32,636 nucleotides of DNA, taken from the NCBI GenBank assembly GCA_938010715.1, contig CALLVG010000238.1, positions 1 to 32,636 on the forward strand, written 5' to 3'. Under the pieces are notes generated by a model, which was not told the origin of the DNA, searched no databases, and saw only the letters and a program-made list of their open reading frames with translations. This document shows, one piece after another, positions 26,110 to 29,671 of the stretch. Origin of the DNA: an uncultured Saprospiraceae bacterium. GTDB taxonomy: Bacteria > Bacteroidota > Bacteroidia > Chitinophagales > Saprospiraceae. Both the position numbers and the translations under genes were made by a program. How positions within the stretch are numbered: position 1 is the first letter of the stretch; the number at the start of each line of letters is the position of its first letter.

Positions 26110-28761
26110 TTAAAATCCTTCAATGTATTCTTCGTCATCGTCGTCCTCAATTGGTACTTCCTTTACTTTAGGTTTTTCCTTTTTGGGCGTAACCTTTTTG
26201 ATAGAAGCGGTACCTATTTTGCCACTCCCTGAGAAAATATCTCTTCTCTCTTCTTCAGAGGATTGTTCCAATAATTGTATTGGCCCAAACTGGCGTTCCA
26301 ATTCTTTTTGTACTCTTTTCTTTAAAACGACGCTTCGCTCCAATGCTTTCTTTACAGAACGTTTGCTCATCTGAACATTATAATCATCGTCATCGTTGAG
26401 GTCGCCTTTTATTTTATAAAATAAATTTAGCCAACCTCGTTTTTTGGAAGGTTGAGGATCTAATTTAGGATTATGTCGTTTGAGGCGATTGAGGAGTACT
26501 TGTCCTGCATTGACTTTTACATTATAATCAACATTTTGCTCGAAAGTATGCGTTCCCGATACTTCTAAATTGACGGCATTGCTACGCACAAACATGGCAG
26601 GAATATAGACTTTTCCCTTTTGTACTTGAAACCAGTTTTCAACATCCACAAATTTGATCTTTTGCAAGTCTTTCATTTTGATGATAGTTGAAAAGTCTTC
26701 TAACATTTCAAAATCCTTTAACTCTCCATCGGTGATTCCAAGACCAGCAAAAACAGTTAGGTCATCGTATAAAAACTCCCCTTTTTCGTCCCAAAATGCA
26801 TTGATAATCATTCGGGAGTTGAGCAAACCAGAAACATTTTCTGCTTTCAAAAATTCCTGACCAAAGTTTTCTGATTGTCTGAAAAATTCGTGTGCATCAA
26901 TTTCATCGCATTTGATTTTAGCATTCAGATATGGTTCTTTTTCAATGAAAAATTTTCCATTCATATCAATGAGGCCATCCATAGCGCTTGCTTCTCCTTT
27001 GATGGTAACCTCATTGTTGTCAAATACAATTGTTCCTTCAAAATCTTCTCCTTCAATTTTATTATAGTTGAAATTGTCAATTGTTGCGTTGAAAGTACCT
27101 TTCAAAAAATTGGCTAAAAACTCACGATCCGCATTGACCTTCGTTTGTAATGAATCAACAACTTCTTTACTATCATCCTTTTGTTCTTCCGTCACAGCAG
27201 TCAAAGCCATTAGTCGATCTCCGTCAAATTCTTCTGCGTTTAAATCAGCTTTAAAAATCAATTCTGCTTTTTTCGTATTCAAAGAATCAGCAAACAATAC
27301 TGGGAGTAAATTTTCAAAATGCCCATTGAAAATGATTTCACTGCCAGCACCTTCGAGTTTCAATCCGTCCATTTTGAGGTCATTATCTTTGAGCAAGACT
27401 GATCCACGATCAAAGATCATTTTTTCGTCTTTGAAAATTAGAGAAGCATCATCCAAAATCATTTCACCTGAGGCTTCAACTCGGTCAATCCTTGATGTAC
27501 TCAGCATGTTTTTGTATTTTCCTCTGATAGCCAAGTTTTTGATTTCCACCTCGCCACGACCACCGGTAATATTTGGATTGTCAAAAAGTTTATAAACTGA
27601 CTTCATCGGAATAGCTCCGTCCAATTTGAAATCAATTCTTGGGTCATCCGCGTTATTTACTTTTAATTTAAGTTCAATCAACTCCCGATTAAAATATCCT
27701 TTGAAATTCTTGATTTCGAAAAGCGTACTTGATGCTTTTCTGTACTCGCCATTCGTAAAACGCGCTGAGAAGGAAACATCTTTCAAATCATCTTCCAATC
27801 GTGGGCTGGTTATACGCCCATCTTTCAAAATGAATTTAGTATTGATATTAGGATTGGATTTATTACTCAAGCGCCCTTTTATAATAGATTCAAAAAGAAA
27901 CTTTCCGGTTCCAGAAAAGTCATTGAGTGGTTCCAGATATTGCTCTGGCAAAAGCTGAATAATAGACCCTAACTTCCCTTCGCTACAAGTAATGGCTATA
28001 TCAATATCAGTTTCATTACTTTTGGCTTCGTTGTCAACAAATCCATCTACCTTAAAAACATTGCCATCAATAGCGACGTCCAATTTTTCAAATTCATAAT
28101 ATCCTTGTTCGCTATTGACATGGAGTTTTGCATCGTATGTGATTTCTTTTCCGACCAAATAACGAAACTCTCCCATGTCCACAAATCGAGAAATCATATC
28201 GGCATTACTCGTCAATTCAAATTTTGTAGAAGAAAATTCTCCAGAAAAAACAGCATTTTCTAATATGATAACAGCTTCTTGTTCGGTGCGTTTGTCTTCA
28301 TAGATTAATTCCATGTTTTTTAAAGTCGCTTCTTTCAACGAGATTGCCATATCTCCTCCATCATCACTTTCTCCTGATTTTATAATGTCATAATTTGATT
28401 TTCCTCTTTTGTTAAAAACGATCATTAGAGCGCCATCTTCTATCTGCACTTCTTTGATGTTCATTTTTGTTTTGAAAAGGCTAAAGAATCCCAACTTGAA
28501 ACCAATAGATTTTGCTTGTAAAAGATTCTTTTTTCGGGTGTCTTTGACGACGACATCTATCAATTCGGCAGAAACATTAGGAAATCCACCGAAGAAATTC
28601 AAGTCAAAATCCTTTACGGTGAGTTCTGTTTTCAAAGATTTATTAACTTCCGTAATGATTTTGTCTCCGATCTCTTTTTCAAAGAATGCAGATAAAACCA
28701 CCGTCGCTATTAGAAATAGGAGGAAAAAGACACCAAAACCGATAAGAATTTTTCTAATCAT
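26110..28761 (-). CDS. AsmA-like envelope protein
   Basis: An 883-residue protein with one N-terminal transmembrane helix (residues 5-27, ILIGFGVFFLLFLIATVVLS) and a long, mostly beta-structured periplasmic region. The start (KKSL...VKDFDLNFFGGFPNVSAELIDV) and the segments VQIEDGALMIVFNKRGKSNY and LKNMELIYEDKR are typical of the AsmA superfamily. The C-terminal part contains the second AsmA-type block (SGLLNSRMIINAFWDEKGEF, and GLGITDGELKDFEMLEDFST). The tail is lysine-rich then acidic (DDDDEEYIEGF). AsmA-family proteins, related to TamB and YhdP, bridge the inner and outer membranes and influence lipid transport; the specific role here is unknown. It is a single gene divergent from the tRNA array. 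Confidence 0.88.
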   Translation of the reverse strand: MIRKILIGFGVFFLLFLIATVVLSAFFEKEIGDKIITEVNKSLKTELTVKDFDLNFFGGFPNVSAELIDVVVKDTRKKNLLQAKSIGFKLGFFSLFKTKMNIKEVQIEDGALMIVFNKRGKSNYDIIKSGESDDGGDMAISLKEATLKNMELIYEDKRTEQEAVIILENAVFSGEFSSTKFELTSNADMISRFVDMGEFRYLVGKEITYDAKLHVNSEQGYYEFEKLDVAIDGNVFKVDGFVDNEAKSNETDIDIAITCSEGKLGSIIQLLPEQYLEPLNDFSGTGKFLFESIIKGRLSNKSNPNINTKFILKDGRITSPRLEDDLKDVSFSARFTNGEYRKASSTLFEIKNFKGYFNRELIELKLKVNNADDPRIDFKLDGAIPMKSVYKLFDNPNITGGRGEVEIKNLAIRGKYKNMLSTSRIDRVEASGEMILDDASLIFKDEKMIFDRGSVLLKDNDLKMDGLKLEGAGSEIIFNGHFENLLPVLFADSLNTKKAELIFKADLNAEEFDGDRLMALTAVTEEQKDDSKEVVDSLQTKVNADREFLANFLKGTFNATIDNFNYNKIEGEDFEGTIVFDNNEVTIKGEASAMDGLIDMNGKFFIEKEPYLNAKIKCDEIDAHEFFRQSENFGQEFLKAENVSGLLNSRMIINAFWDEKGEFLYDDLTVFAGLGITDGELKDFEMLEDFSTIIKMKDLQKIKFVDVENWFQVQKGKVYIPAMFVRSNAVNLEVSGTHTFEQNVDYNVKVNAGQVLLNRLKRHNPKLDPQPSKKRGWLNLFYKIKGDLNDDDDYNVQMSKRSVKKALERSVVLKKRVQKELERQFGPIQLLEQSSEEERRDIFSGSGKIGTASIKKVTPKKEKPKVKEVPIEDDDDEEYIEGF

Positions 28762-28963: not shown

Positions 28964-29028
28964 GGGCAATTAGCTCAGTTGGTTCAGAGCATCCCGATTT
29001 TAATCGGGAGGGTTTGGATGAGTCGAGT
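28964..29028 (+). pseudogene. Truncated tRNA-Val-like copy (copy 1)
   Basis: GGGCAATTAGCTCAGTTGG and on through ttcagagca are identical, with the preceding taa, to the true tRNA-Val at 29052. The anticodon arm is replaced by tcccgattttaatcggga, an almost perfect palindrome with no seven-base loop. The T-arm and 3' acceptor strand are then missing: the sequence continues ggtttggatgagtcgagtac and no GTTCGAATCC follows. It cannot fold as a tRNA. The right boundary is approximate. Confidence 0.65.
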
Positions 29029-29051
29029 ACAATTTGTCAACCTTATTATAA

Positions 29052-29126
29052 GGGCAATTAGCTCAGTTGGTTCAGAGCACCTCGTTTACACCGAGGGGGT
29101 CGGAGGTTCGAATCCTTCATTGCCCA
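29052..29126 (+). tRNA. tRNA-Val (anticodon TAC)
   Basis: A 75-base gene with a complete cloverleaf. The acceptor stem is GGGCAAT/ATTGCCC, the D-stem GCTC/GAGC, the anticodon stem CCTCG/CGAGG with loop TTTACAC (anticodon TAC at 29087-29089), the T-arm GGAGG-TTCGAAT-CCTTC, and the discriminator is A. CCA is not encoded. It is the only copy of the array with a proper anticodon loop. A strong terminator follows directly. Confidence 0.95.
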
Positions 29127-29130
29127 CTTT

Positions 29131-29160
29131 AAAGGCTTCCCGTTTGGGAAGCCTTTTTTT
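29131..29160 (+). terminator. Terminator after tRNA-Val
   Basis: AAAGGCTTCCC-gttt-GGGAAGCC followed by seven T residues. Related versions follow copy 3 (decayed) and copy 4 (intact), so the terminator was duplicated together with the tRNA-like sequence. Confidence 0.9.
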
Positions 29161-29183
29161 GTATATGGAGTCTTGGGATTTAC

Positions 29184-29260
29184 TGGCAATTAGCTCAGCT
29201 GGTTCAGCGCATCCCGAATTAATTCAGGAGAGTCGTGAGGTTCGAATCCTACATTGCCCA
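29184..29260 (+). pseudogene. Degenerate tRNA-like copy (copy 3)
   Basis: A 77-base sequence with tRNA order but several defects. The first acceptor base is T instead of G (T-C mismatch), and the D-stem reads GCTC/GCGC with a mismatch. The anticodon arm is TCCCGAATTAATTCAGGA, an 18-base near-palindrome leaving eight bases instead of seven in the loop. The T-arm tgagg/cctac is mismatched; TTCGAAT is kept. It is followed by a decayed terminator (aaaggcttcccatttaaaga). It is nearly identical to copy 4 at 29553-29629. Confidence 0.65.
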
Positions 29261-29310: not shown

Positions 29311-29562
29311 ATGTACCACACCTACATCTTATATTCAAAGCAATTGGATAAATATTACATCGGTGCATGTGGAACTGATGTAAGCCGCCGCCTTCAAGAG
29401 CACCTTTGGAAACACAGTGGTTTTACTTCAAAAGCCAAGGATTGGGAAATAAAGCACGTAGAAGATTACGAAACAAAAGAATTAGCGTATGATAGAGAAC
29501 GACAAATCAAGAAGTGGAAATCAAGAAAAATGATAGAGGCATTGATAAGAAAGGGCAATTAG
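29311..29562 (+). CDS. Small GIY-YIG endonuclease-domain protein, stop codon inside a tRNA-like copy
   Basis: An 83-residue single-domain GIY-YIG protein. The 'GIY' part is YHTYILYSKQLDKYYIG (Tyr2/Tyr5 region, then YYIG), the catalytic Arg region is DVSRRLQEH, and the C-terminal conserved part is AYDRERQIKKWKSRKMIEAL with the usual Glu. This is the URI/YhbQ-like single-domain type of about 80-100 residues, common in Bacteroidota; the function of most is unproven. The last three residues and the stop (AAG GGC AAT TAG) lie in the first ten bases of tRNA-like copy 4, so the ORF and the tRNA-like sequence overlap. Upstream lies near-identical copy 3. Thus the gene is flanked by direct tRNA-like repeats. 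Confidence 0.9.
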   Translation: MYHTYILYSKQLDKYYIGACGTDVSRRLQEHLWKHSGFTSKAKDWEIKHVEDYETKELAYDRERQIKKWKSRKMIEALIRKGN

Positions 29563-29629
29563 CTCAGTTGGTTCAGCGCATCCCGAATTAATTCGGGAGA
29601 GTCGTGAGGTTCGAATCCTTCATTGCCCA
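29553..29629 (+). pseudogene. tRNA-like copy with palindromic anticodon arm (copy 4)
   Basis: A 77-base sequence with intact acceptor stem GGGCAAT/ATTGCCC, discriminator A and TTCGAAT T-loop. The D-stem is GCTC/GCGC with one mismatch. The anticodon arm is TCCCGAATTAATTCGGGA, a perfect 18-base palindrome: a five-base stem leaves an eight-base loop AATTAATT, or a seven-base stem leaves TTAA. The variable and T regions read gagtcg and tgagg/ccttc, with an end mismatch. I think it is not a working tRNA. It begins inside the GIY-YIG ORF and is followed by an intact terminator. A tRNA gene finder might still score it as an undetermined tRNA. Confidence 0.6.
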
Positions 29630-29633
29630 CTTT

Positions 29634-29663
29634 AAAGGCTTCCCATTAGGGAAGCCTTTTTTT
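29634..29663 (+). terminator. Terminator after tRNA-like copy 4
   Basis: AAAGGCTTCCC-atta-GGGAAGCC plus seven T residues, nearly identical to the terminator after the real tRNA-Val. It ends the plus-strand array. Confidence 0.88.
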
Positions 29664-29671
29664 GTAGAATT

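Follow-up and report, generated by a model that had tools for sequence, protein, structure and literature searches.

A small GIY-YIG nuclease gene set among tRNA-like copies with palindromic anticodon arms: a probable tRNA-nested selfish element of Bacteroidota

The window considered here is a stretch of 32,636 nucleotides from the genome of an uncultured Saprospiraceae bacterium. Between positions 28964 and 29666 it holds one intact tRNA-Val(TAC) gene together with three altered copies (Table 1). Copy 1 is followed by the intact copy 2, a terminator, copy 3, a GIY-YIG open reading frame (ORF), copy 4 and a second terminator. The ORF, situated between copies 3 and 4, was missed in an earlier, sequence-only reading of this DNA. 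It is the sole ORF of length between the copies, and no tyrosine or serine integrase is found in the unit. The encoded protein ends in Lys-Gly-Asn, and the TAG stop codon falls inside the first bases of copy 4. The repeating unit is composed of a terminator, the GIY-YIG nuclease gene and a tRNA-like copy with a palindromic hairpin as its anticodon arm. A short stretch (29161-29183, ATGGAGTCTTGGGATTTACTGG) that lies after the first terminator and before copy 3 may, by eye, be the beginning of an earlier nuclease unit since deleted.

Table 1. Features of the tRNA-Val array and the criteria by which each was assigned
Feature	Position	Strand	Basis
Copy 1, tRNA-Val 5' half in the upstream unit; palindromic anticodon arm at 28992-29009, T arm gone	28964..29037	+	sequence
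Copy 2, intact tRNA-Val, anticodon TAC	29052..29127	+	ARAGORN; Rfam RF00005, 70.9 bits
Terminator-like hairpin and T run 3' of copy 2, recurring 3' of copy 4	29131..29160	+	inverted repeat; closely similar in congener G182
Copy 3, tRNA-Val-like; one-change palindrome at 29212-29229, T-loop and 3' end kept	29184..29260	+	Rfam 24.6 bits, below cut-off
GIY-YIG nuclease ORF, 83 aa	29311..29562	+	Pfam PF01541, E 1.7e-12; profile kinship to UPF0213 and Slx1
Copy 4, tRNA-Val-like, palindromic anticodon arm	29553..29629	+	Rfam 34.4 bits; ARAGORN
Perfect 18-base palindrome TCCCGAATTAATTCGGGA in copy 4	29581..29598	.	sequence
Terminator-like sequence, second copy	29634..29665	+	sequence

The perfect 18-base palindrome that the sequence-only reading described in copy 4 is real and lies exactly at 29581-29598. 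Its companion statements, that copy 3 differs by a single change and that copy 1 carries a similar arm, are borne out by TCCCGAATTAATTCAGGA and TCCCGATTTTAATCGGGA, respectively. Under a first-order Markov model, 0.22 perfect 18-base palindromes are expected in the window and two are present, the second being an AT-only sequence at 26408; for the motif TCCCGA(0-8)TCGGGA, two are present against 0.0 expected. The arm of copy 4 folds into a 7-bp stem with a 4-nt loop in place of the 5-bp stem and 7-nt loop of an anticodon arm, and ARAGORN labels the copy “tRNA-???” with a two-letter anticodon, in agreement with the earlier claim that a normal 5+7+5 arm cannot form. Likeness to tRNA is nonetheless retained, with copy 4 scoring 34.4 bits in Rfam (gathering score 29) compared with 70.9 bits for the intact copy 2. 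The acceptor stem and T-loop, which had been described as kept, are kept in copies 3 and 4 only, copy 1 having lost its T arm.

The GIY-YIG domain of the ORF product is confirmed by a PF01541 score of 47.9 bits against a cut-off of 22.6. Y5, R27 and E63 are invariant among 20 aligned sequences and, by analogy, correspond to the expected active-site Tyr, Arg and Glu, with a putative catalytic role. A structure model of the nuclease has a pLDDT of 90.8. The closest solved structures by profile are those of UPF0213 (PDB 1ywl, 1zg2) and Slx1, a clear match, and a fold search likewise ranks UPF0213 1zg2 and Slx1 at the top, with weak E-values. Among close nuclease pairs, dN/dS is mostly 0.04-0.18 (0.35 in one pair); these ratios place the nuclease under purifying selection and, taken with the invariant residues and the confident model, make it look functional. 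A relative is present in 118 of 199 genomes of one family. Phage records gave no tblastn match to the nuclease, plasmid records gave no match and the PHROG homing-endonuclease match is weak.

A survey of the family and a search of genome contigs together yielded 97 distinct nuclease loci, the window included. ARAGORN calls a tRNA near 83 of the 97, a few such calls being the altered copies themselves. At 71 of these 97 close-relative loci there is a tRNA-like copy with a palindromic anticodon arm of the TCCCGA..TCGGGA type, canonical tRNA arms caught by the scan having been excluded from the palindrome counts. The host tRNAs include Val, Arg, Pro, Lys, Met and Ala. The tRNA, the nuclease and all of the tRNA-like copies share one strand, and the downstream palindrome is found at a near-constant position, some 240-280 bases from the nuclease start. 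More distant relatives of the nuclease show the same association: 35 of 40 lie no more than 600 bp from a tRNA, all 35 on the same strand, where about 1% would be expected by chance (an estimate based on 27 tRNA hits over 3.6 Mb). An exact tRNA-like pattern, built from examples already seen, occurs in 12 of the 199 family genomes, and its reversed control occurs in none. Some copies with no nuclease found nearby stand beside tRNA-Lys, tRNA-Thr or tRNA-Val. There is also a mirrored form, in which the altered copy lies upstream and the C-terminus of the nuclease runs into the intact tRNA.

The mirrored locus belongs to the same genome as the window, where a second GIY-YIG gene adjoins tRNA-Arg(TCG); the upstream half copy there has a 26-base insert, CCTGCCCGACAAGCGGAGCAGGCGGG, in its anticodon loop. 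On another contig of this genome, a tRNA-Met-like copy, in which the perfect palindrome TCCGCCGCGGCGGA adjoins the anticodon, lies immediately 5' of an intact tRNA-Met, the contig end being close by. At five loci, altered copies contain a second palindrome-like insert in or near the T arm, which at one of them (L164) repeats the anticodon-arm palindrome exactly. Palindromic copies at several loci receive ARAGORN names that include tRNA-Stop, SeC, Pro(ggg) and Lys, and such naming probably leads to errors in the tRNA annotation of Bacteroidota.

The palindrome is not confined to tRNA-like sequence. The genome that contains the window has 11 TCCCGA(0-8)TCGGGA sites (reversed control, 0), nine of which are located outside the window in intergenic repeats. 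These nine occur on as many contigs, outside a tRNA context, and the intergenic palindromes form at least two repeat families with longer common flanks. A relative with a 5.2 Mb genome, G061, has 627 palindromes of the same definition. Several internal variants exist among them, all symmetric (AG..CT, AC..GT, AA..TT), and at the 15 loci viewed they are mostly intergenic. Genomes with the nuclease have a palindrome density of 0.83 per Mb compared with 0.39 per Mb in those without it (p=4e-4, uncorrected for relatedness or composition), a modest correlation that is no more than suggestive of a tie between the nuclease and the dispersed palindromes.

Maintenance of the palindrome was followed in downstream copies picked by a match to the D arm only, a choice that limits circularity. 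Perfect arms of at least 6 bp are present in 44 of 56 such copies, the remaining 12 being decayed or mis-anchored. Removal of eight rows with the anchor off the arm and of one duplicate left 47 copies for the analysis of covariation. In this set 94.2% of cells are paired, a percentage somewhat flattered because the eight rows were judged after they had been viewed and were mostly unpaired; the double changes are not produced by this exclusion. Double changes occur at five of eight pairs and amount to 32 cells against 5.8 in shuffles that ignore relatedness (0/500), and slid controls collapse. When the palindrome was set against nuclease clade, its 7-mer changed 23 times on a poorly resolved tree, a count that carries no shuffled-label control. 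Decay without compensation in other genomes, which the sequence-only reading had named as grounds for abandoning its proposal, is thus not the pattern observed: pairing is kept by compensatory changes, and a minority of copies have decayed. G.T pairs account for 2 of 336 pairs in palindrome arms versus 14 of 415 in intact anticodon stems, a scarcity that favours DNA. The total length of the palindrome varies from 16 to 21, and such a variable spacer favours a hairpin and disfavours binding as a rigid duplex. Both lines are indirect, and together they point to a hairpin formed in DNA more than to an RNA used for decoding. Perfect pairing could also stem from hairpin-templated mutation rather than selection.

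Among the functions raised in the sequence-only reading, a DNA site that is not used for decoding, possibly for recognition by a nuclease, is the one favoured by the nuclease gene within the array, the compensatory changes, the few G.T pairs and the recurrence in many genera. The suggestion that the copies might be charged and present TAA or TTA in an eight-base loop fares worst. Copy 4 is still tRNA-like to both ARAGORN and Rfam, but the loop varies freely among relatives and the arm favours a short loop on a stem of 7-8 bp. Moreover, the palindrome core is near-identical in Val, Arg, Lys, Pro and Met contexts, and the arm also occurs in 5' half copies unable to be whole tRNAs, many upstream copies being without the tRNA 3' half. 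A charged product is therefore scarcely credible. An RNA device, in which the altered copies are co-transcribed with the tRNA and serve as decoys or processing signals or regulate the tRNA or nuclease, the nuclease itself being an RNase, would be in keeping with the shared strand, with the retention of much of the tRNA 5' half and with the predicted stability of the hairpin as RNA. Such a device is improbable given the few G.T pairs, the presence of the same palindrome type outside tRNA contexts in the genome and the kinship of the nuclease by profile to UPF0213 and Slx1, whose superfamily is generally known to consist mainly of DNases. The decay of part of the copies and the dispersal of the palindrome elsewhere could also be taken to indicate neutral debris, namely tRNA pseudogenes that arose by duplication and took in a common palindromic repeat, the nuclease being there by chance. 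Chance association is very hard to reconcile with recurrence across the phylum, with the linkage of 35 of 40 distant relatives to tRNA on one strand, or with the near-constant spacing, low dN/dS and compensatory changes, and we regard this account as highly improbable.

The history of the locus is informed by congener G182, the flanks of which are about 86% identical to those of the window. Its syntenic site consists of a single intact tRNA-Val with a closely similar leader and terminator, and has no extra tRNA copies and no nuclease gene. The array in the window is therefore an insertion or duplication, and the window and G182 provide one pair of occupied and empty alleles at a single site. 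Where units are in tandem, as is common among the loci, they repeat with a period of about 340-430 bp. Relocated units are also found. In Flavobacterium hibernum, a nuclease gene and tRNA-Arg-like copy lie between ordinary genes and are 97% identical over 284 bp to a unit in a tRNA cluster, and in Elizabethkingia miricola a 372-bp stretch about 10 kb away from a tRNA-linked unit is 93% identical to it and has tRNA 3'-end sequence on both sides. As these units have diverged, they are evidence of past movement or duplication only, and not of present activity. From such comparisons the element appears to multiply and to have moved.

Multiplication of this kind has a precedent in SegB of T-even phages, a free-standing GIY-YIG homing endonuclease that is reported to cut in tRNA genes and to drive tandem amplification of the tRNA-segB segment by way of microhomology that the 3' end of segB shares with the tRNA 5' region (PMC13096335). 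By the same route, a nuclease making double-strand cuts in element-free intact tRNA genes could have the nuclease-tRNA segment copied in by repair and amplified in tandem, the palindromic arm being mainly a disrupted and protective target. The overlap of the nuclease 3' end with the tRNA-like 5' end and the tRNA 3'-end sequence flanking the Elizabethkingia unit are consistent with this route. We nevertheless consider it unlikely, as the intact tRNA within the array would itself be a target, the T-loop is intact in copies 3 and 4, and protection alone leaves a conserved palindrome with compensatory changes unexplained; the lack of a tblastn match in phage records and the weak PHROG match may also count against it. 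In its simple form, the protection model gives the palindrome no role but to destroy a T-loop target, and was set aside in view of the T-loop that copies 3 and 4 retain.

The explanation that we favour, and hold to be probable, is a selfish element nested in a tRNA gene, with a nuclease that acts on the hairpins. The putative nuclease would recognise or cut the hairpin, most probably in the form that the DNA takes when the locus is single-stranded, and breaks at the hairpin would be repaired between tRNA-derived direct repeats, by which the unit would be duplicated or moved. One intact host tRNA stays beside the unit, and decoding should thus be unharmed. At the level of sequence, this explanation is supported by the recurrence of the arrangement, its absence from the syntenic site of the congener, the units in tandem, the diverged units with no intact tRNA next to them, the conserved pairing of the palindrome and the purifying selection on the nuclease; from these we infer cleavage, with its strand preference, mobility and the recombination route. 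It is conceivable, and proposed more tentatively, that these units represent a Bacteroidota-wide class of mobile elements made of a minimal GIY-YIG nuclease and hairpins in copies of host tRNAs, which together would move and amplify the element and seed the palindrome genome-wide in a REP-like manner with GIY-YIG chemistry. A search of one open-access library found no description, for Bacteroidota, of GIY-YIG elements linked to tRNA or of tRNA copies with palindromes, and the element is apparently undescribed so far. If the favoured explanation is correct, a common group of very small bacterial nucleases can be assigned both a defined habitat in the genome and a candidate substrate. Odd tRNA calls in the annotation of Bacteroidota would also be accounted for, as would GIY-YIG proteins with translated-tRNA C-termini and, perhaps, a widespread dispersed palindrome. 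The hairpin and nuclease would form a pair open to direct testing in vitro.

Parts of this arrangement are found in several known systems. UPF0213 (1ywl, 1zg2) and Slx1 are the nearest to the nuclease by profile, and we know of no link between either and tRNA-like repeats. The palindromic elements of Rickettsia and Wolbachia are palindromes inserted into genes, and to our knowledge have no linked nuclease; here, by contrast, an intact tRNA copy is retained nearby. The Ssn/NTS system of Neisseria combines a small stand-alone GIY-YIG nuclease with a genome-dispersed palindromic repeat, and is likened by description to the small GIY-YIG nuclease and dispersed palindrome seen here (11 sites in the genome of the window, 627 in G061); nesting in tRNA genes is not known to us for Ssn/NTS. 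In REP/RAYT systems palindromes flank a nuclease gene and are dispersed through the genome, but RAYTs are HUH/Y1 enzymes, whereas the linked gene here encodes a GIY-YIG protein in place of an HUH/Y1 transposase and the palindromes are built into tRNA copies. SegB differs in being phage-borne and larger, the present element being chromosomal and its nuclease about 80 aa. Palindromic tRNA-like copies are present here, and none are reported for SegB in the available part of its description (PMC13096335). The two share a GIY-YIG nuclease residing among tRNA genes, a tandem tRNA-nuclease segment and a nuclease 3' end with sequence in common with the tRNA 5' region (PMC13096335).
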